Assembly: GCF_003144315.1 (NCBI RefSeq) | Contig: NZ_MPDK01000002.1 | Location: 372,001-436,000 of the forward strand | Source of the DNA: Sulfoacidibacillus thermotolerans | GTDB taxonomy: Bacteria > Bacillota > Bacilli > Alicyclobacillales > SLC66 | DNA length: 64,000 nt | Reading direction: 5' to 3' | In this document: in pieces, positions 11,337-21,472 of the stretch | Layout of the letters: each line of letters opens with the position of its first letter | Numbering within the stretch: position 1 is the first letter of the stretch | Notes under the pieces: generated by a model | The model's database searches: none | What the model was told of the DNA's origin: nothing | The model's input: only the letters and a program-made list of their open reading frames with translations | Position numbers and translations under genes: made by a program

Positions 11337-13127
11337 CTAAATCTGATTTGCCAGTAACCCCATATCGTGCTGAACTTCTAATATAGAATCGCTAAGCAAA
11401 TACACAATCGGTCTTCCCACAGCTATAGGATATACATAAGCAAGATAGTATACCTCACTCGGATCGACATTCACTTGCGCAAACATGTAGGGAATTGCTC
11501 CTATTGCTGCGTGATCCAATACAATGCGCTTTTCTAGATCATTTATCTTTGTCATCAAATAACCATCGCTCACATCCGTGCGCTGAGCTTGTAATAATCT
11601 TCGAAGCAGCTCTAACTGATGCGCCTGCGACAAACCTGAATCCCAAAGCAAAGAGCGCGGACGCAATTTTTCACGCAGCAAAAAATCGGCATGAAGCAAC
11701 GTGGTAACATTCTCATCAAATTTTCCTTCATACTCCAAGAATGCCTGGAGTCGGCGGACCAAATCCAATGGTTGATGGCCTATTCGCGCCCATCCCTTTG
11801 CATTCCAAAACTCGCCAAACGATAAAAAGAAATCGAATGCCGTAGGAAATGACTCCGTGATGAGATATTCCAGTGTGTAAGGAAAGCGCCCAGAGTTATA
11901 ATATTTTTCTAGAATATCCTCCATGTGCTTTAATCGATGGATATCGGAAAATGTGAGACTGTGATTTGAAAGCAATTCATATGGCGCAGTGTCCATAAAA
12001 ACATAGCCAAATTGTTCAGCTTTCTGACGCAATCCAGTCCCCTTTAATAACTTGAGAAAACCAAGTTGTAACTCATCTGGACGAAGCTCAAATACATCGT
12101 TAAATGTGTTACGAAAACTTAAAAAATCTTCTTCTGGAAGTCCGGCAATCAAATCAAGATGTTGCAAGATACGCCCCGACTCCTTAATTTTCCGTACAGT
12201 CGCCGCCAAACGCGTAAAGTCTTGGCGCCGCCGAACCAGCTCATTGGTGAGGTCATTTGTCGATTGAACTCCGACTTCAAACCGAAATAAACCTTTAGGA
12301 GCATGTTCACAAAGCCATTGTACAATATCCGACTTTAAGATGTCGCCCGTAATTTCAAAGTGAAAAGTTGTGTTCCCATGGTTTTCAACCAGAAATTCAA
12401 AAATCTTCATTGCATAGTCTTTACGTAAATTAAACGTTCGATCGACAAACTTAATTTGTCGGACATTTGCTTTTATTAGCCGATTTAAATCATCTAGGAC
12501 CCTTTGCAAACTAAAATAGCGTACACCATCTTCAATCGATGAAAGACAAAATTGACAGTGAAATGGACATCCGCGACTCGCTTCATAGTAAACAATTCGG
12601 TTACGTAGTTCATCCATTGCATCCTCAGGATAGGGAGTAGGAAGATCATCTAAGCGCAATTTCGAACTTGGACCGGTCGTATGAATCGAGAAATCCTCCG
12701 CTCGATAATAAATACCTGACACCGCAGAATACGGTTGGTGCTGCTCAATCGCGGCTAATAAGTTGCGCAAAGGGGCTTCTCCTTCACCAATGACAACGAC
12801 ATCCACCGCTTTATTTTCCTCCAGAAATTCCTTTGTGTCATACGAAACCTCTGGTCCTCCGAGCACTATAACAACATGCGGTAATATCTTGCGAATGAGG
12901 GGAACTAAACGTTTGATCTCTTCAATGTTCCATATATAGCAACTAAATCCGACTACTTCTGGATCTGCTTCGTACACGCGCCCTAGAATATAATCGAGAG
13001 GATCATGGATCGTAAATTCCTCCATCACCACATCGTGTGCATCCGCAATAAATGCGCGTAAATATCTTAGCGCAAGTGACGAATGAATAAATTTCGCATT
13101 CAAAGTCGTCAAAAAAACTCGCGCCAT
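11337..13127 (-). CDS. B12-binding domain radical SAM protein (DUF4080)
   Basis: A protein of 596 residues. Residues about 1-140 form a cobalamin-binding Rossmann-like domain (VVGFSCYIWNIEEIK, VLGGPEVSYD). The radical SAM core starts with the cluster motif RGCPFHCQFC at about residue 187-196. The C-terminal third is the DUF4080 region. Members are predicted to use cobalamin and SAM, but no reaction has been assigned. The start has GAGGTGA and AAGG upstream. It heads a minus-strand operon with the DUF212 and 63-residue genes. Confidence 0.82.
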   Translation of the reverse strand: MARVFLTTLNAKFIHSSLALRYLRAFIADAHDVVMEEFTIHDPLDYILGRVYEADPEVVGFSCYIWNIEEIKRLVPLIRKILPHVVIVLGGPEVSYDTKEFLEENKAVDVVVIGEGEAPLRNLLAAIEQHQPYSAVSGIYYRAEDFSIHTTGPSSKLRLDDLPTPYPEDAMDELRNRIVYYEASRGCPFHCQFCLSSIEDGVRYFSLQRVLDDLNRLIKANVRQIKFVDRTFNLRKDYAMKIFEFLVENHGNTTFHFEITGDILKSDIVQWLCEHAPKGLFRFEVGVQSTNDLTNELVRRRQDFTRLAATVRKIKESGRILQHLDLIAGLPEEDFLSFRNTFNDVFELRPDELQLGFLKLLKGTGLRQKAEQFGYVFMDTAPYELLSNHSLTFSDIHRLKHMEDILEKYYNSGRFPYTLEYLITESFPTAFDFFLSFGEFWNAKGWARIGHQPLDLVRRLQAFLEYEGKFDENVTTLLHADFLLREKLRPRSLLWDSGLSQAHQLELLRRLLQAQRTDVSDGYLMTKINDLEKRIVLDHAAIGAIPYMFAQVNVDPSEVYYLAYVYPIAVGRPIVYLLSDSILEVQHDMGLLANQI

Positions 13128-13225
13128 CCTTCATTCACCTCACGCAAACAATTGTACAAAACGCCTTCGCATCAGCAGACCTAGCTCACAACCAATGCAT
13201 ATCAGTATAGCCAAAGTGTGCATTC

Positions 13226-13256
13226 TTGACACCGGGACAGTGATCCCGCCATATGT
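13226..13256 (+). promoter_or_regulatory. candidate yunC promoter with inverted repeat in the spacer
   Basis: A perfect -35 TTGACA (13226-13231) is followed by a weak -10 around CATATG (13250-13255). The spacer contains the inverted repeat CGGGA-N6-TCCCG (13233-13248), which could be an operator. Assignment rests on sequence only. Confidence 0.4.
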
Positions 13257-13281
13257 TAACGAAGAAAGGAGGCCGTTTTTC

Positions 13282-13602
13282 ATGGTCACAGTTACTCCGT
13301 TAACCATTGAAAATTGTTCATGCGTCGCAACTACCGTCACACTCCCCAAAACGGATCTCGTCATCGTTTCGACAAACATCGGATACATTATGTGTGGCGC
13401 ATTAGACGTTGGTTTATTAAATGCGCGCCTTAAAGATCGTCAGATTATCGCCGCGCGAGCTGTCGGTGTCAAGACCGTCGAGCAACTACTCGCAGCTCCC
13501 TTAGAATCAGTAACAGAGGCAGCTCATGCAATTGGCATTAAAGTGGGGATGACTGGAAAAGAAGCCATCCTTCTCATGTGTCGTCATCAGACGCATCCGT
13601 AA
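13282..13602 (+). CDS. yunC: YunC-family protein (DUF1805)
   Basis: A 106-residue protein starting at ATG 13282, with AAAGGAGG nine bases upstream; the longer upstream frame lacks a ribosome site. GYIMCGALDVGLLN, RAVGVKTVEQLL, APLESV and GIKVGMTGKEA are the DUF1805 signatures found in Bacillus YunC. The biochemical role is unknown. It stands alone and diverges from the radical SAM gene. Confidence 0.85.
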   Translation: MVTVTPLTIENCSCVATTVTLPKTDLVIVSTNIGYIMCGALDVGLLNARLKDRQIIAARAVGVKTVEQLLAAPLESVTEAAHAIGIKVGMTGKEAILLMCRHQTHP

Positions 13603-13644
13603 GACGATAGAACATAGATTACGCTGCTTTCTGTCGCAAGGCGA

Positions 13645-13667
13645 GCGGCAGGGGATTCCCCTGCCGC
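13645..13667. terminator. GC-rich hairpin between convergent genes
   Basis: A nearly perfect palindrome, 11 bp on each side of a one-base centre (GCGGCAGGGGA with TCCCCTGCCGC). There is no clear U-run on either strand, so it is only a probable bidirectional terminator for yunC and the glycosyltransferase. Confidence 0.55.
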
Positions 13668-13686
13668 CAAAGTATGTTGTTGTCTC

Positions 13687-14934
13687 TCACCGCGAGCGCA
13701 TCTCATCTAGCTGAATTGCCCTTGTATGCACTGTGTGATTCCACACGCGGTTGTGCCGTGTAAAGAGGGCTAACAGAGTAACAGGAAACCAAGTAACCAT
13801 AAAAACAGGAAAGAGCGGGAGCCCCAGATAAGCTTTCCATGGAATGCGATCTAGTAACATGGCTAATGGCATCTGCAGTAAAATAAACAAATTAATCATC
13901 GCCCAAAACCAAGTTGGGAGTAATTCCGTCATGGAATTTACTGCCCAAGCTGCCGGCGCCCCCATTTGAAACAAAAGCATAAAACCTGTAAAGAATAAGA
14001 TTAAAAACCGCATCGGCTGAAACAGATAAATGGCAGCATCTAACTTCGCGAGACTCCGTTCTGCAATACTGGCTGACAAAAGCGGCGCCATATACTGCTG
14101 TGCACAGTTAAAATGACCCTGCATCCAGCGCAAACGCTGACGCATCGAAGCCCGCAAAGAAATGGGCTTCTCATCGTAAACGCGTGCATCATGTGCCCAT
14201 ACTGGATAAATCCCAACTGATACACATTTCGCCCCAAATTCAACGTCCTCTGTAAGCCCAGTCGCTTCCCAACCTAACCGTTCAAGGAGCTTCATGTCAA
14301 TACAAAGTCCAGTACCGCCAAGTGCACATGACAATCCCAGATTGTAACGCGCCAACTGCCACATTCGATTCGTGTACCAATAGGAAATAGCCATCGAGAT
14401 CGTTACCCAAGAATCATATGGATTTTTAATATCCAAATACCCTTGAATTACTTTTTTCCCTGCTAATAACCGCTCATTCATGACGCGTAAAAAGTTTGTC
14501 GCCACCAAGTTGTCTGCATCAAACATAACAACTGCGTCGTACTTTTGTTCGGATTCATACAAGCGATCCAACATCCAACGAATCGCAAATCCTTTTCCTC
14601 GTTCTTGATCATTGGATCGTTCAGCGACGTTTACTCCACACGCCCTCGCAATCTCAGCTGTGTTATCTGTACAGTTGTCTGCGATCACATAGATGTCATA
14701 CAGATGATCCGGATACTCCATCCGCTTTAAATTTTCAAGCAATGGGCGAATCACTTGCGCTTCATTGTGAGCAGCAACCAGCACTGCAAATCGCTTTTGC
14801 GGATCGAACTGAATCTTTCGCTTTCGATAATACAGTCCAAATACAGATAAAACCACTTGATAGGCACCGATGAGACCGGTGATCGCCTGTAGAGCGATGA
14901 AGGCGCCATCCAACACTGCGCTCCAGAAACTCAA
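13687..14934 (-). CDS. family 2 glycosyltransferase, membrane-bound
   Basis: A protein of 415 residues starting with TTG (GGGAGAG upstream). One N-terminal membrane segment is followed by a GT-A domain: VLVAAHNEAQVI, IADNCTDNTAEIA, the metal-binding FDADN, and the acceptor-side TEDVEFG. The processive-type QRLRWMQGH follows at about residue 265, then three to four C-terminal membrane segments. This layout is seen in polysaccharide or glycolipid synthases. The product cannot be deduced. The gene is isolated from other polysaccharide genes. Confidence 0.82.
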   Translation of the reverse strand: MSFWSAVLDGAFIALQAITGLIGAYQVVLSVFGLYYRKRKIQFDPQKRFAVLVAAHNEAQVIRPLLENLKRMEYPDHLYDIYVIADNCTDNTAEIARACGVNVAERSNDQERGKGFAIRWMLDRLYESEQKYDAVVMFDADNLVATNFLRVMNERLLAGKKVIQGYLDIKNPYDSWVTISMAISYWYTNRMWQLARYNLGLSCALGGTGLCIDMKLLERLGWEATGLTEDVEFGAKCVSVGIYPVWAHDARVYDEKPISLRASMRQRLRWMQGHFNCAQQYMAPLLSASIAERSLAKLDAAIYLFQPMRFLILFFTGFMLLFQMGAPAAWAVNSMTELLPTWFWAMINLFILLQMPLAMLLDRIPWKAYLGLPLFPVFMVTWFPVTLLALFTRHNRVWNHTVHTRAIQLDEMRSR

Positions 14935-15092
14935 TCAAAGTCTCTCCCGTCATGTCACGACATCGCGAGCCTAAAAGCCCTCCTTACTATAGCATGTATG
15001 CGAATCAGAGGACAAGTAGACTGACGATCTCTCACCTTGTATACTTTATATTGTAACGCAATTTGTCTTTTGCAGTCAGAAAGGGGTACAAC

Positions 15093-15713
15093 ATGCAAGG
15101 ACTGTCACTTCTACTTGAACACTTCATTCGGCATTACGGCATTGCTGCAATTTTTATCACGATGATTCTAGAAAGCGCGTGTATTCCTCTACCAAGCGAA
15201 TTAATCATGACATTTGCTGGATTCGAGTCCTGGAAAGGAAATATTAACTTTACAGAAGCCGTGTTTGCTGGCGTCATTGGCAATGTAGTAGGCTCACTCA
15301 TTGCCTACTACATCGGCAGCAAAGGAGGCAGACCCTTTTTACGACGCTACGGAAAATATATTCTATTTTCAGAAAAACACTTCTCCTCAGCCGAACACTG
15401 GTTTGCTCGTTATGGCGCTATCACCGTATTATTAGGCAGAATACTCCCTGCAATTCGCACCTTTATTTCCCTGCCAGCCGGCATTGCCAATATGCGTATA
15501 AGTACATTTTTGCTTTTTACCACAATTGGCAGTCTACCGTGGGTTTACATTTTAACCCTTCTTGGATACCAGTTCGGTGGACATTGGGCTGCTATTGAAC
15601 AACATTCCTCTGCCTTAACCTATGTATTTGCTATTTTGTTGATTGCCATACTGATCATCTTTTGGCTGCGCAACAAACCCCACACCCACATTGACAATAA
15701 TTCCTCACAGTAA
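15093..15713 (+). CDS. DedA-family membrane protein
   Basis: A protein of 206 residues; the ATG at 15093 follows AGAAAGGGGT. Several membrane segments and DedA signatures are visible: ESACIPLPSELIMTFAG, GSLIAYYIGSKGG, and the GRILPAIRTFISLPAGIA block. The family contains lipid carriers such as UptA, which recycles undecaprenyl phosphate, so such a role is possible. A second DedA protein lies at 28,277-28,888. Terminated by the hairpin at 15,765. Confidence 0.85.
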   Translation: MQGLSLLLEHFIRHYGIAAIFITMILESACIPLPSELIMTFAGFESWKGNINFTEAVFAGVIGNVVGSLIAYYIGSKGGRPFLRRYGKYILFSEKHFSSAEHWFARYGAITVLLGRILPAIRTFISLPAGIANMRISTFLLFTTIGSLPWVYILTLLGYQFGGHWAAIEQHSSALTYVFAILLIAILIIFWLRNKPHTHIDNNSSQ

Positions 15714-15764
15714 ACAACAAAGAGCCACCACTCATAGCCAAGCACATAAACAGGAATCCTGTTT

Positions 15765-15805
15765 GAAATGAAGAGGTGGGCTACAATCGCCCACCTCTTC
15801 ATTTC
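15765..15805. terminator. bidirectional terminator
   Basis: A perfect 17-bp stem (GAAATGAAGAGGTGGGC paired with its complement) and a 7-base loop between convergent dedA and iscA-like genes. A second small palindrome (AACAGGAATCCTGTT) lies just before it. Confidence 0.85.
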
Positions 15806-15806
15806 T

Positions 15807-16157
15807 TTAAGAGCAACTTCCTGGCGTACCCGCATCATCTTTCGTATGAAAGCTAGAACCACATCCACAACTAGAAACCGCGTTTGGATTAAAAATTTTG
15901 AAACCTTTACCAGACAATCCATTGACATAATCAATTTCTGCCCCATCAATAAGCGGCAAACTTGCTTCATCAACGAGAACTGGAATGCCTGACTGCATGG
16001 TAAGAAGATCAGATTCTTTTTTCATATCGAGAGCCATTCCATAACTATAACCAGAGCAACCACCTGGTTTGACAAAGATGCGCAGTCCTAAACCTTCCTC
16101 TTTATCAGACAAAAGTTCCTTGACCACTTTCGCTGCTTCCATTGTCAAAGTTACCAT
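15807..16157 (-). CDS. HesB/IscA-family iron-sulfur assembly protein
   Basis: A protein of 116 residues; ATG 16157 is chosen because AAGGAGG lies 8 bases upstream and the TTG at 16163 is too close to it. The three family cysteines are present in GGCSGYSYG and SSCGCGSS, which bind iron or a Fe-S cluster for transfer to apoproteins. It corresponds to Bacillus SufA/ErpA-type A-type carriers. Monocistronic, no suf genes adjacent. Confidence 0.88.
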   Translation of the reverse strand: MVTLTMEAAKVVKELLSDKEEGLGLRIFVKPGGCSGYSYGMALDMKKESDLLTMQSGIPVLVDEASLPLIDGAEIDYVNGLSGKGFKIFNPNAVSSCGCGSSFHTKDDAGTPGSCS

Positions 16158-16245
16158 CGCCAACTCCTCCTTGCCATTGTAACTCTATTTTACACCCCAC
16201 AAAACATGAGTACCAGCATTTCCTCTGTGTACATGAAAGACAGAA

Positions 16246-16287
16246 AAAATCTCCCGCAAACGTCATTCCACATTTGCGGGAGATTTT
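16246..16287 (-). terminator. rho-independent terminator of the peroxiredoxin gene
   Basis: A 15-bp stem (AAAATCTCCCGCAAA with TTTGCGGGAGATTTT) followed on the minus strand by TT and C. It starts two bases after the stop codon at 16289. Confidence 0.9.
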
Positions 16288-16288
16288 A

Positions 16289-16756
16289 TTATAAGCTCTC
16301 TTTTAAGTCATTTAAAACTTTGGCTGCATGGCCATCCACTTTTACTTTGGGATAGATCCGAACAAGTTTTCCCTCTGGATCAATAACAAAGGTCGTTCGC
16401 TCAATTCCCATATAGGTGCGACCATACATTTTTTTCTCTTTGTAGACGCCATACGCAGTACATACTGCTGCATCAGGGTCTGAGAGCAAAGGGTACGTCA
16501 GATTGTATTTTTTCGCAAACTTTTCATGTGAAGCTATGCTATCTGTGCTAATCCCTAGCACAACCGCCTTGAGTTTAGCAAACTCTGGTAAGAGTGCTTG
16601 AAACTCATTGGCCTCCTGCGTTCAACCAGGTGTCATATCTTTAGGATAAAAAAACAACACTACATAGTGGCCGCGTTGTGTACTTAGTTGAAATGAGCCA
16701 ACTTCTGTTGCCGTAAGTGTAAAATCTGGTGCCTCTTGACCAACCGCTATTTCCAT
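16289..16756 (-). CDS. bcp: peroxiredoxin of the BCP type with in-frame UGA at the peroxidatic position (predicted selenoprotein)
   Basis: A frame of 155 residues from ATG 16756 (AGAAGGAGG upstream; -10 TATACT near 16,794-16,789) to the stop at 16289, interrupted only by TGA at codon 45 (16624-16622). Before it stands EAPDFTLTATEVG and VVLFFYPKDMTPG; after it TQEANEFQ, then GISTDSIASHEKFAKKY, RTTFVIDPEGK. This is the complete bacterioferritin-comigratory protein fold, and the TGA falls exactly on the peroxidatic cysteine (Cys45 in E. coli BCP, motif TPGC). Reading it as selenocysteine gives an intact peroxide reductase; the resolving cysteine five residues on is absent (Asn). Sec-containing peroxiredoxins are known. 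The alternatives are a nonsense mutation or sequencing error. No sel genes lie in the window. Confidence 0.8.
16571..16606 (-). promoter_or_regulatory. candidate bacterial SECIS hairpin
   Basis: Within the coding sequence, after the UGA, the RNA can fold as GAGUUU (pairing with AAACUC), a CA bulge, AGCA:UGCU, a UU bulge, CUCU:AGAG and a UACC loop. The loop starts about 31 bases after the UGA, inside the range usual for bacterial SECIS elements. The guanine usually found at the start of the apical loop is not present, so the match is partial. Confidence 0.4.
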
Positions 16757-16800
16757 TCGGCTCCTCCTTCTGATTTGCAATCATCTAGAGTATACCGAAT

Positions 16801-17697
16801 TTATTTAGAAATCACCTGCACTTTGACGTTTTCCATGCCAAATTGATCAGCTAAACTTGCACTTGGCAAAAAAATGTCGATTCGATTCCCCTGAATAGCA
16901 CCACCAATATCATTTGCCGTTGCATAAAATCCTCCAGGCGGAAGTGCTGGATCGGAATATCCACTAATAAAAAGTGTTGAGCCTAGCGGAATCACTGATG
17001 GATCTACTGCAACGTCGCCAAACTGAAGCGGTTGTCCAAAATAATTCACCGCTCCCCATGGACCATTATCTGCGACAGATGCATCATAAGACGTGGCCAG
17101 CATATTGTATGTCTGCGCGGAAGACTGATTTTGTGTTTGTGGTGCAGGTGCAGGTGAAGAAGAGGTAGGAGTCGATGAAGTTGCTGCAGACGCACTGTCA
17201 TTAACACTCGCCGTTTGACTGTCAGATAAAGTGCTTGCAGTTGTCGTAGTCATCGCGAGATTCGAATTGCTCGTGTCATTTGAATTCCACGTCGTTGCCT
17301 CATTACTCCCTAGTGCAATCAGTAGTTTTTGCCCAGGATAAATTAAGTCAGAAGTTAATCCATTTAATTCTTGAATAGAGGCGACACTTGTGTTGTAACG
17401 ACGAGCAATATACCATAACGTATCCCCAGGATCGACGAGATACAAAAAAGGGATTGCCACGACTTCGCCGGGATACAGAATACTATCTCCATTCAAGTGA
17501 TTGACCCGTTCGAAACTTTGCAACCCTACATGAGCCTGTACAGAAATTGAATACGCACTGTCAAGCGGTTGTACCGTGTAGGGTCCAAGCGGAGTCGTCG
17601 CCGCAAAAGCACTCACATGTGACCCCAACAACAGCCCAGCGCATAACAGTGCCGCAGTTGTTTGCTGCACAGCAGAAAATCTAGCCTTTATTCGCAT
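16801..17697 (-). CDS. LysM-LysM-3D domain cell-wall protein under c-di-AMP control
   Basis: A protein of 298 residues. The N-terminal signal peptide ends near AFAA (about residue 33). Two LysM repeats follow (YTVQPLDSAYSISVQAHVG and LVDPGDTLWYIARRYNT, each ending in an LYPGE/IYPGQ segment), then a Ser/Thr-rich linker and a C-terminal 3D domain with DPSVIPLGS, NDIGGAI and IDIFLPS. It binds peptidoglycan and is probably a lytic transglycosylase-like hydrolase. GGGAGGG precedes the ATG. The leader carries a ydaO-type riboswitch, a known arrangement for wall hydrolases. Its own stop is only 44 bases before the peroxiredoxin start, so read-through is possible. Confidence 0.88.
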   Translation of the reverse strand: MRIKARFSAVQQTTAALLCAGLLLGSHVSAFAATTPLGPYTVQPLDSAYSISVQAHVGLQSFERVNHLNGDSILYPGEVVAIPFLYLVDPGDTLWYIARRYNTSVASIQELNGLTSDLIYPGQKLLIALGSNEATTWNSNDTSNSNLAMTTTTASTLSDSQTASVNDSASAATSSTPTSSSPAPAPQTQNQSSAQTYNMLATSYDASVADNGPWGAVNYFGQPLQFGDVAVDPSVIPLGSTLFISGYSDPALPPGGFYATANDIGGAIQGNRIDIFLPSASLADQFGMENVKVQVISK

Positions 17698-17704
17698 AAT
17701 TCCC

Positions 17705-17822
17705 TCCCTGGCCTCCGGAGTTAGCTGACGGGTTCGGGCGAAGGATGCCCGCTCACAAAGATGAGTTCACCCCAAAGCACACGGTTCCTCCGTACACACA
17801 TCGATGTGTGATTCGGCTTATG
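17705..17822 (-). promoter_or_regulatory. cyclic di-AMP riboswitch (ydaO/yuaA class)
   Basis: The minus strand contains the class hallmarks in order: AAGCCGAATC, ACGGAGGAACC, TTGGGGTGAA, GGGCATCCTTCGCCCGAACC and GTCAGCTAACTCCGGAGGC. The closing helix pairs GCC of the 5' end with GGC next to CAGGGAGGGA, the ribosome-binding region of the LysM-3D gene. In this class, c-di-AMP binding turns expression of osmotic and cell-wall genes off. Because the ribosome site lies directly behind the closing helix, control could be translational; no separate terminator hairpin with U-run is visible. Confidence 0.88.
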
Positions 17823-17866
17823 TGATGTCGCGTAGAACTATACACGACATCACCCCGAATTGCCAA
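17822..17866 (-). promoter_or_regulatory. promoter of the riboswitch transcript with a 9-bp inverted repeat around the -10
   Basis: On the minus strand TTGGCA (17866-17861), 18 bases, then TATAGT (17842-17837). The expected start is near 17830. The perfect repeat GTGATGTCG (17822-17830) and CGACATCAC (17844-17852) flanks the -10, so the right arm is probably outside the RNA and the palindrome acts as DNA, as an operator would. Confidence 0.55.
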
Positions 17867-17891
17867 GCTGTAAATCATGCCATGGAGAATC

Positions 17892-19424
17892 TTACCGTTC
17901 CTTTACAACGCGCACGGTCTCAATTGTTGGATCATCTGGTCCTTGTACAGGTAATCCTGCACGTAAATTTTCTTCAATAAATTCTACATTATCTGCGGTT
18001 ACTATTTCACCAGGTAAAAGAATCGGAATCCCTGGGGGATAGACTTTAATTACATCTGCGATAATTCTTCCGATTGCATCTCGTAGCTGTACAACTTCCG
18101 TTTCAGCATAAAAAGCTTCTCTCGGACTCATTGCAAGTACAGGGGTAGAAGGTACAACAATTTGAATTTTATGGTGATGTTGCAGCAATTCCCGATTCGC
18201 AATTTCTGCAATCGCAGAAATTAATGCTGCGATGTTTTCCTCTGTATCGCCAAAAGAAATTACACATAGCACATTGTATAAATCGGATAATTCAACTTCA
18301 ATATTATATTTTTCACGTAGAATGACTTCTACTTCATATCCTGATAACCCAATCTCCGCCACGCGAATCGTAAGTTTCAATGGATCGAGCGCAAATGTCG
18401 CAGAAGAAGCTAAAATTTCTTCACCAAAACAATAGATCCCTGGAATTTCATTCAATCGCCGACGCGCACTCTGCGCCATCGCGATCGCTCGATCGAGCAA
18501 CTCATGCCCACGCGTTGCCAGTTGACGGCGAGCTGCATCCAGTGATGCCAAGAGAATGTAAGAAGTTGACGTGGTCGTAAGCAAAGATAAGATTGAATGT
18601 ACATGCCTCGCGCGCACTAGCCCTTCTTTCACATTCAATACTGAACTTTGTGTAAGGGAGCCTCCTAATTTATGAACACTTGTAGCCGCCAAATCACACC
18701 CAGCTTGCATAGCGGACGGTGGCAATTGCTCATGAAAATGCGTATGCACGCCATGTGCTTCATCGACTAGAACTACGACTCCGCGATCATGTGCGAGTTT
18801 TACAATCGAACGTAAATCTGTTGCTACTCCAAAATATGTCGGATTAATTAGCAAGACCGCTTTTACATTCGGATGGCGCTTTAATCCCTCTGCCACTGAC
18901 TCGACGCGCACACCATGCGCAATTCCTAAGCGTAAGTCCACTTCTGGTTGCAAAAAGAACGGCCTAGCTCCAGATAAAATAATCGCCGATAGGACCGAAG
19001 TATGGATGTTGCGCGGAACGAGAATCTCATCTCCCGGACCTACGACAGACATGATCATTGCCATAATTGCACCACTTGTACCTTGCACGGAAAAGAAAGT
19101 ATAATCTGCGCCGAATGCCTGTGCAGCCAACTTTTGTGCTTGGTCGATAATTCCTGTAGGATGATGCAGGTCATCTAATGGACCAATGTTAATGAGATCG
19201 ATACTCAGCGCTCGCTCACCCATAAATTCCCTGAATTCAGGATCCATCGCGAGTCCAGTTTTATGTCCTGGAATATGAAATTGCAAAGGGCGACGCATTG
19301 CATGCTCACGCAGTGCCGAAAACAACGGGGTCTGAGACTGATCTAACAAAAAATTCACATCCTCACTTCTATGCAAACGATGACTGCTATCACCACGCTT
19401 AAAGCGGTACACATCCTCGCCCAT
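17892..19424 (-). CDS. Orn/Lys/Arg decarboxylase family PLP enzyme
   Basis: A protein of 510 residues of fold-type I. Markers of the short Bacillus-type (SpeA/YaaO) decarboxylases are FHIPGHKTG, FSVQGTSGAIMAMI, VDEAHGVHTHFH (PLP-contacting aspartate and histidine) and ATSVHKLGGSLTQ with the Schiff-base lysine. The C-terminal domain has PPGIPILLPGE. It would decarboxylate arginine, lysine or ornithine for polyamine synthesis or acid resistance; the substrate cannot be read from the sequence. The ATG lacks a strong ribosome site, so the true start may be up to 20 codons inside. Confidence 0.85.
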   Translation of the reverse strand: MGEDVYRFKRGDSSHRLHRSEDVNFLLDQSQTPLFSALREHAMRRPLQFHIPGHKTGLAMDPEFREFMGERALSIDLINIGPLDDLHHPTGIIDQAQKLAAQAFGADYTFFSVQGTSGAIMAMIMSVVGPGDEILVPRNIHTSVLSAIILSGARPFFLQPEVDLRLGIAHGVRVESVAEGLKRHPNVKAVLLINPTYFGVATDLRSIVKLAHDRGVVVLVDEAHGVHTHFHEQLPPSAMQAGCDLAATSVHKLGGSLTQSSVLNVKEGLVRARHVHSILSLLTTTSTSYILLASLDAARRQLATRGHELLDRAIAMAQSARRRLNEIPGIYCFGEEILASSATFALDPLKLTIRVAEIGLSGYEVEVILREKYNIEVELSDLYNVLCVISFGDTEENIAALISAIAEIANRELLQHHHKIQIVVPSTPVLAMSPREAFYAETEVVQLRDAIGRIIADVIKVYPPGIPILLPGEIVTADNVEFIEENLRAGLPVQGPDDPTIETVRVVKER

Positions 19425-19523
19425 CGATTACATCCGAGTAAAATATCAACTACTTATAATACAGAAAGAAGACTCTACAAGCAAAGCCTTCCTATTCATA
19501 GAGAGCTTCTAACGATTTGAAAG

Positions 19524-19988
19524 TCACTCGCTTGTGAACGCTTCAAGAAACTGAGGAGACGCATGCTGGTACAAATCTGGACGAAACTCCTGCACAAATG
19601 CGCGCAATAAACCAAACTCTTCCTCAGTCAGATTCGTTAGGTCCACCCTTCCCTTTACCGCTTTTTCCATTTGATTCGCCTGTTCAATTAGATTTTTATA
19701 CCCTTTCCCAGACTGTTGATCAATAAAGGACTCACAAGCAGCCGCACCGTGAAATCCTTGATTGCCATCTCTGCGGTATAAGCTCAACCATACAATTGCA
19801 ACTTTTCGTGGATTAGAAACCTGTTGCAAACTCTTTTCATACTGAATTCCTTGATCGATTTTAGCCTTTCCATGAATTGCACCATTATCCAGATAAAGCT
19901 CCCCTTGATCAATAATGAGTGCAGACAACGTCGACATACCTTCTGGCGCGCGATGTTGATTCGTCCCTGTCAGACGTAATTCTTCCAT
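19524..19988 (-). CDS. ywhD: YwhD-family protein
   Basis: A 154-residue protein; ATG 19988 is preceded by GAAAGGGTG and is preferred to a TTG 57 bases upstream. The segments ELYLDNGAIHGKAKIDQGI, WLSLYR and ACESFID, then GYKNL, match Bacillus YwhD. The biochemical function of the family is unknown. Monocistronic, divergent from the SpoIID-like gene. Confidence 0.8.
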   Translation of the reverse strand: MEELRLTGTNQHRAPEGMSTLSALIIDQGELYLDNGAIHGKAKIDQGIQYEKSLQQVSNPRKVAIVWLSLYRRDGNQGFHGAAACESFIDQQSGKGYKNLIEQANQMEKAVKGRVDLTNLTEEEFGLLRAFVQEFRPDLYQHASPQFLEAFTSE

Positions 19989-20139
19989 ATATAAGCACCC
20001 TTTCCTCACAGCGTATAAGGATCTTTTCTCCCATTTTACCTTCAAACGAGGATTTCACAAGCAAACGCATGATATTTCCCAAGTGGGGCATGATTACAGC
20101 AGAATCCTGACTTGTTATGCACTGGAGGTCGAGTCATCC

Positions 20140-20799
20140 TTGTATAAAAATCAACGTCGAACGCTGGTTTCCATATTGACCACCCTTGTTTTTGGAACTC
20201 TTTGTGCAACTCTCCCTGCAAATTTAGCAAAGGCGCAAACCTACATGGTGGGATCCACAGGATTCCCTAGTAATATTCGCGTGGCGATTCGCGAAACAAA
20301 TTCATCCGGCGAACCTGACCCACGTGGTCGAATCATCTATGTTTCCACTGTTAACTTTGATCAATATTGCCGTGATGTCTTGCCAAACGAATGGTTCCCA
20401 AACTGGAATCCTGCCGCACTTGAGGCTGGAGCCATCGCAGTAAAAATGTTTGCCTGGTTCCATCATCTTCATCCTGTAACGATTGATGGATACACTTTTG
20501 ATGTAGATAATACGGTGAATTTCCAAACGTATCGCGCGCAGTCTGATCAACCGAGTACGGACCAAGCGTATTATGCTACACGTAATTTAGCGTTTGTAAA
20601 ACCTAACAAGGAAATTGTCGAATTAAACTACCGCGCTGGTTACGAGAATAATCCAAACTGGCAATACCGAAATGCCGGTATCATGGCCCAATGGGGTTCT
20701 GAATACTGGGCAAACCAAGGTCGAACCCCTTTACAAATTCTCGAATTTTATTATATTGGCCGCATGCTCACAACGATTCCAGGCGTTGGAAGGAGTTAA
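20140..20799 (+). CDS. exported SpoIID/LytB-domain protein
   Basis: A protein of about 219 residues if translation starts at TTG 20140, which has GGAGGT ten bases upstream and opens directly into a signal peptide (basic YKNQRR, a hydrophobic stretch, then LAKAQ). An ATG at 20083 would give an odd extension. The SpoIID core is present: CRDVLPNEW (the glutamate corresponds to the catalytic Glu of SpoIID transglycosylases) and the helix AALEAGAIAVKMFAWFHH. It is shorter than sporulation SpoIID, so it is a domain relative. It is 4 bases from the next gene, clearly an operon. Confidence 0.75.
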   Translation: MYKNQRRTLVSILTTLVFGTLCATLPANLAKAQTYMVGSTGFPSNIRVAIRETNSSGEPDPRGRIIYVSTVNFDQYCRDVLPNEWFPNWNPAALEAGAIAVKMFAWFHHLHPVTIDGYTFDVDNTVNFQTYRAQSDQPSTDQAYYATRNLAFVKPNKEIVELNYRAGYENNPNWQYRNAGIMAQWGSEYWANQGRTPLQILEFYYIGRMLTTIPGVGRS

Positions 20800-20803
20800 A
20801 AGT

Positions 20804-21472
20804 GTGAAAAATAAGAATGTGATACAAATATTAGCTCGCACTCTTTTGGCTACAGGAATCTTGTCACTTTCTTTTTTCCCGATCCATCTGTGTTCAGCTG
20901 CAAATACACCAGCAAACGTTTCACAACCTATGCAGTTCCAGCAACAACAACCAAAACCTACGGATAAAACACCAAACACTACGGATAAAACACCAAATCC
21001 CGCGGAAAAACCGCAAACAAGTGGTTACGATCCGATGATTTCCGGTAAGGGATATGGCAATTTGCGTGTGAAAGTGATTGATGGTAGAACCTTAAAACCC
21101 ATTGAAGGGGCAGAAGTTGTCGTATTAGAAACGGAGAAACGCTACAAAACGGATGCAAATGGACTTACACCGTGGATTCAAGCACCTGTTTTACGCAGTG
21201 CTCGCTTTCGCTTTCTGGTAAATGAGTTGCACGGCCAACTCACCCTCATTTCATATAAAAACGGTTACCACGACTCGATTCATATGGGAGTTCGCATGAA
21301 TGAGGGCGCAACAACCAAAACAACAATTTGGCAATACCAAATCACACCTGGTGTAGATCGGCGTCTCGAACCGATCGTGTACATCGAACCCTATCATCGT
21401 CTGTGGCTAATTCAACTTGCCGATCGGTTTCGCCGACCTTCACAACTCGGTGAAGGTTATGAACGTCCATAA
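20804..21472 (+). CDS. exported protein with carboxypeptidase-regulatory-like domain
   Basis: A 222-residue protein; GTG 20804 has AAGGAG upstream and yields a signal peptide ending near CSAAN. A proline-rich linker with tandem TDKTPNT/TDKTPNP repeats (about residues 45-65) leads to a beta-sandwich-like domain: LRVKVIDGRTLKPIEGAEVVV and TDANGLTPWIQAP are typical of CarboxypepD_reg or related surface domains. It probably sits at the cell surface with the SpoIID-like partner. Function unknown. Confidence 0.65.
   Translation: MKNKNVIQILARTLLATGILSLSFFPIHLCSAANTPANVSQPMQFQQQQPKPTDKTPNTTDKTPNPAEKPQTSGYDPMISGKGYGNLRVKVIDGRTLKPIEGAEVVVLETEKRYKTDANGLTPWIQAPVLRSARFRFLVNELHGQLTLISYKNGYHDSIHMGVRMNEGATTKTTIWQYQITPGVDRRLEPIVYIEPYHRLWLIQLADRFRRPSQLGEGYERP

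Follow-up and report, generated by a model that had tools for sequence, protein, structure and literature searches.

The window analysed here, a stretch of DNA of 64,000 nucleotides, carries a gene for a BCP/PrxQ-type peroxiredoxin in which the UGA at codon 45 is almost certainly decoded as selenocysteine (Sec), in a genome from the order of Alicyclobacillus pomorum. An earlier note on this DNA had read the gene as a probable selenoprotein, and this reading is strongly supported by the sel genes of the genome, the state of codon 45 in relatives, the selection acting on the coding sequence, and a hairpin that follows the UGA.

A peroxiredoxin gene with TGA at codon 45

The features of the locus are as follows.

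16289..16756, minus strand: BCP/PrxQ-type peroxiredoxin gene, 155 residues by read-through translation, ATG start at 16756, TAA stop at 16291-16289
16622..16624, minus strand: in-frame TGA at codon 45, the peroxidatic position, read as selenocysteine
16566..16612, minus strand: SECIS-like hairpin, a 9-nt spacer after the UGA and then the stem, apical loop starting 31 nt after the UGA
16761..16769, minus strand: Shine-Dalgarno sequence AAGGAGGAG, 4 nt ahead of the ATG, read from the sequence
16789..16794, minus strand: TATACT, a possible -10 box, found by eye, weak and without a partner
16246..16287, minus strand: intrinsic terminator-like hairpin, 18 pairs followed by a T-rich tail

Read-through translation at the coordinates of the earlier note, on the minus strand, confirmed that the TGA at codon 45 is the sole internal stop of an otherwise complete 155-codon frame, and it places the Sec site in the motif YPKDMTPGU, followed by TQEAN. 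The Pfam AhpC-TSA domain matches across the TGA (151.3 bits against a cut-off of 26, residues 5-132), and the protein combines this domain with the PxxxTxx(C/U) motif expected of BCP/PrxQ. The best solved-structure matches bear the name bacterioferritin comigratory protein and cover residues 22-152 (E about 1e-43), and residue 45 aligns with the TPGC cysteine of these structures, in agreement with the position that the earlier note had assigned to the TGA. Scored with C in place of U, the protein reached 134.9 bits with PRK09437 (NCBIfam thiol peroxidase, cut-off 140) and 161.2 bits with NF053650 (NCBIfam, cut-off 260); since both cut-offs were missed, we name it BCP/PrxQ-type and treat it as an equivalog of neither model. 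Mechanical ORF calling gave only a 90-residue, GTG-started piece without the active site (16289-16561), which is the truncated call that had been foreseen, and read-through corrects a gene that would otherwise be entered as this fragment.

As for the expression signals, the claim that the gene has its own ribosome site (AAGGAGGAG, 16769-16761) and terminator (16287-16246) held, the latter being the only terminator-like hairpin in 16100-16900, where shuffled sequences average 0.5. The claimed -10 box was not confirmed: TATACT was found by eye, and a promoter scan upstream of the gene listed no promoter-like pair, TATACT included. Upstream lies a 298-residue frame (16801-17697), by eye presumably a LysM/3D-domain protein, which is preceded by a c-di-AMP riboswitch (17695-17828, minus strand, 83.4 bits); downstream of the terminator lies a gene (15807-16163, minus strand) which, also by eye, we take to be HesB/IscA-like. 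These two genes flank the BCP gene at the congener loci L025 and L026 as well. An Rfam search of 12000-21000 returned no SECIS family, and the riboswitch alone exceeded its gathering score. The window holds 16 candidates for frames joined across a TGA, including the BCP gene; seven of the 15 others were compared with Pfam, and no domain crosses the TGA in them.

Sec machinery of the genome and codon 45 in relatives

The host genome (2.87 Mb in 135 contigs, 99.86% complete) possesses all of selA, selB, selC and selD, for which the earlier note had proposed a search, and selD is present twice. A single tRNA-Sec, scoring 65 bits, exceeds the cut-off of 47 and has the anticodon tca according to ARAGORN; there are 17 weaker matches, and all seven of those inspected are ordinary tRNAs. 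Over curated cut-offs, selA scored 585.4 bits, selB 368.3 bits, and the two selD genes 397.2 and 336.2 bits, each selD match containing one TGA. When read through, both (L019, G000:C24:39787-40713, and L020, G000:C59:53271-54197) remain above the SelD cut-off and carry U shortly ahead of the GPGDL segment, a site which we take to be the SelD active site, so both are probably Sec-containing SelD proteins.

We also identified a second peroxiredoxin gene in the genome (L034, G000:C70:133992-134384) with TGA at the catalytic Cys, SDFSTIU-PTE, as well as its counterpart in one congener (L033, G001:C7:144034-144417) with TGA at the same position; L034 is nearest to PrxU/AhpC models yet stays under their cut-offs (151.9 bits with NF040737). 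Two formate dehydrogenase alpha genes were found over the cut-off, L194 (G000:C48:197821-199830) and L195 (G000:C49:22355-24364), and neither has an in-frame stop within its match, although the genome decodes Sec. Since both lack such a stop, the peroxiredoxins and SelD appear to be among the users of the Sec trait.

Codon 45 is TGA in all three genomes of the genus, including our own, the other two genes being 75-76% identical to it. The survey was extended to the order, which is that of Alicyclobacillus because L074, from A. pomorum, and L149, from genome G019, are identical genes; 59 genomes were searched and 56 yielded a BCP gene with an E value of at most 1e-30. The alignment of relatives, which had been suggested as a check, shows nothing but Sec or Cys codons in this column: 18 TGA (own included), 38 TGT or TGC, and no other. 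Stop codons scattered at random in relatives had been named as evidence against a selenoprotein, and no stop other than TGA stands at codon 45 in the 56 genes. The tRNA-Sec exceeded its cut-off in 17 of the 18 TGA genomes versus 11 of the 38 Cys genomes of the order (Fisher p 6e-6, uncorrected for kinship). It was also found over the cut-off in 17/17 TGA genomes outside the order, giving 34 of 35 in total; the sole TGA genome without it, G057, is 88% complete, and the tRNA was missing there in both searches. Genome G055 (contigs C49 and C125) has two tRNA-Sec matches over the cut-off, one of just 90 nt and 49.7 bits, and G056 has a match of this weak kind only.

In a class sample, 234 of 299 genomes matched; among the class matches listed, which reach E 5.6e-43, four outside the order have TGA, and all four, once fetched, have it at codon 45. 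A phylum sample of 398 genomes was scanned with a degenerate DNA pattern that admits TGA, TAA, TAG or TGG at the codon, and that is strict and hence undercounts; it matched once each in 14 genomes (own included), always with TGA. That the one stop among 155 codons coincides with the catalytic Cys, and returns at this codon in relatives as TGA, goes beyond chance. Between genus members, purifying selection acts on the sequence that follows the TGA (pN 0.12-0.15 vs pS 0.77-0.88), and the first 44 codons are conserved across the genus too (pN 0.14-0.23, pS 0.48-0.76). The UGA is therefore flanked on both sides by conserved coding sequence, as expected of a selenoprotein gene.

These observations bear on three other accounts of the frame. 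A pseudogene or sequencing error, that is, a Cys codon mutated or misread to TGA, would take one substitution in a TGC or TGT codon, and the source assembly is fragmented (135 contigs); however, the same TGA recurs in the three genus genomes and in 18 of the 56 order genes, the frame is free of any further stop, selection persists downstream of the TGA, and the codon was never TAA, TAG or TGG in the 14 phylum matches, which makes this account very improbable. It is slightly less probable still that the 90-residue frame is a real shortened product: mechanical ORF calling does give it, but it would be devoid of the catalytic loop, the strong ribosome site sits at the full-length ATG, and the 44 codons ahead of the TGA are conserved.

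Genome-wide reassignment of UGA to Trp, Cys or Arg would also account for a TGA-bearing frame, which requires decoding of UGA to be open. Against it, TGA serves as the stop codon in 13 of the window's 56 non-overlapping ORFs with 100 codons or more, and a tRNA-Sec with anticodon tca is present together with selA, selB and selD; we give this account practically no credence. Decoding of UGA as Sec at codon 45 is thus by far the preferred reading.

A hairpin just 3' of the UGA

Nucleotides 10 to 56 downstream of the UGA form a hairpin of -16.0 kcal/mol (z -3.97, none of 200 shuffles as low), a value obtained after 16566..16612 had been picked as the best hairpin; an 81-nt stretch and two shorter ones around the UGA fold unremarkably (z +0.31 to -1.45). 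Covariation was assessed on the 18 TGA genes (16 distinct) against 500 shuffles with an 18-pair structure taken from L043, itself a Sec sequence, so that the choice of reference favours the Sec set. In this set, 78.1% of cells were paired vs 71.3% when shuffled (0/500), 17 cells had changes on both sides vs 8.5 (2/500), and the covariation score was 0.281 vs 0.201 (1/500); two other measures were weak, namely the number of pairs that changed on both sides (8 vs 5.6, 50/500) and further pair types (22 vs 19.9, 89/500). The same structure applied to the 38 Cys genes gave 62.4% vs 62.1% when shuffled (191/500), and RNAalifold predicted no pairs for the Cys genes but 9 for the Sec set (-2.06 kcal/mol). 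The covariation tests are inflated by relatedness, and the support they lend is good but not independent proof.

Bacterial SECIS elements have a G early in the apical loop, and the best hairpin in the genus of the window has no G in the first two apical-loop positions. A SECIS hairpin just 3' of the UGA, with the Cys genes as control, is supported apart from this early-loop G. According to the gene set, SelA and SelD would make Sec-tRNA-Sec; SelB would then carry it to the UGA, aided by the downstream hairpin, and the ribosome would insert Sec at codon 45 with no stop.

The resolving cysteine and known peroxiredoxins

The Sec45 selenolate in the PxxxTxxU pocket would attack H2O2 or an organic hydroperoxide and be converted to selenenic acid. 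The read-through translation confirmed that the residue at +5, the usual place of the resolving Cys, is Asn (N50), as had been noted; the helix alpha-3 position is A81, and Cys99 is the sole Cys of the protein. As a resolving Cys occurs at neither +5 nor alpha-3, where an atypical 2-Cys enzyme has it, we do not file the protein as a 2-Cys enzyme. For the same reason, a thiol from outside the protein, thioredoxin or bacillithiol, or possibly Cys99, would resolve the selenenic acid in place of the usual internal disulfide. A gene for bshB2, the only bacillithiol gene searched for, is present in the genome (318.8 bits), which makes bacillithiol a candidate reductant. From the absent resolving Cys, the protein would belong to a one-Sec (1-Cys-like) class that depends on an outside thiol.

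The one-Sec idea of the earlier note gains support from a comparison of 151 rows (35 TGA and 116 Cys), a non-random draw whose Cys rows are those of the order, two class genes and the best 76 genome-contig matches. Three rows were dropped as identical proteins (L066, L067 and L112, equal to L043, L025 and L188) and L129 as too short; L074 and L149, the same Cys gene, were both retained, so that the 116 Cys rows represent 115 genes. A +5 Cys is present in 1/35 TGA genes vs 86/115 distinct Cys genes, raw counts that are not independent events, as supported contrasts on the trees are few, and 9/35 TGA proteins have no Cys whatsoever. Within the tRNA-Sec genomes of the order alone, the +5 Cys occurs in 1/17 TGA vs 6/11 Cys genes.

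The Sec form does not descend as one block: uniting the order's 18 Sec rows in a single clade was rejected (p-AU 0.0021), and 7 changes are required on the order tree, at least 3 of them on supported branches. On the 56-row tree, Sec and loss of the +5 Cys could be compared in 3 pairs on starred branches, of which on average 0.6 agreed in direction, 0.0 ran opposite and 2.3 showed no difference; the 151-row tree gave 4 pairs (2.4, 0.0 and 1.6, respectively; median p 0.5). Well-supported independent contrasts are thus too few, and the coupling of Sec to +5 Cys loss does not reach significance when relatedness is taken into account.

Three genes of the genus coded g4 (L045, L046 and L047) are Cys-form BCPs without the +5 Cys, which is replaced by Asn or Lys. 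In the tree, the branch that nests g4 with the Sec genus g1 is starred, but grouping the seven Sec rows of the g1/g4 clade without g4 was not rejected (p-AU 0.179). The g4 genes may represent a reversal, not statistically proven, from Sec to Cys in which the Asn or Lys at +5 remains as a scar. We tentatively propose, at somewhat less than even confidence for the two parts jointly, that capture of Sec at the peroxidatic site frees BCP/PrxQ from the need for an internal resolving Cys and that g4 may have reverted; the first part is suggested by sequence comparison, in that the Sec rows are not one clade, 34/35 Sec genes lack the +5 Cys and 9/35 are Cys-free. With Sec and Cys forms each occurring both with and without the +5 Cys, nature offers a series in which to test what a peroxidase gains from Sec. 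For Prx, a 2006 survey counted 12 selenoproteins, with five changes from Cys to Sec and none from Sec to Cys (PMC1794560), and the g4 reversal, if true, would run in the direction for which the table of that survey gives none.

Compared with Cys-form BCP/PrxQ (5iph, 5iiz, 3gkk; PRK09437), the protein has in common the motif YPKDxTPG(C/U) and the GIER(S/T)TF segment; it differs in having Sec for Cys, no +5 Cys, and A81 where 5iiz has a Cys, which we take to be the resolving Cys of 5iiz. With PrxU (NF040737), a model which we take to stand for the Sec peroxiredoxin of Eubacterium acidaminophilum (Sohling 2001), it shares Sec at the peroxidatic site; however, it scores only 68.9 bits with NF040737 (cut-off 270), and L034 is nearer to that model. 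Judged by titles and the openings of abstracts in a limited literature on Sec peroxiredoxins with resolving cysteine, PrxQ/1-Cys, Alicyclobacillus or tRNASec, the present pattern is undescribed. The Prx selenoprotein family is tabled as COG1225 (Bcp) with a TxxU motif (PMC9312934) and is also given as PF00578, TxxU (PMC13188914), according to the parts of these sources consulted, and our protein shares with it PF00578, the TxxU motif (TPGU here), Sec for the peroxidatic Cys and the bacterial Sec machinery. The same parts of the two papers mention neither the Alicyclobacillus order nor that the +5 Cys is frequently lost, and there is no difference in kind: a BCP with Sec belongs to this already listed Prx selenoprotein family and is ordinary in kind.
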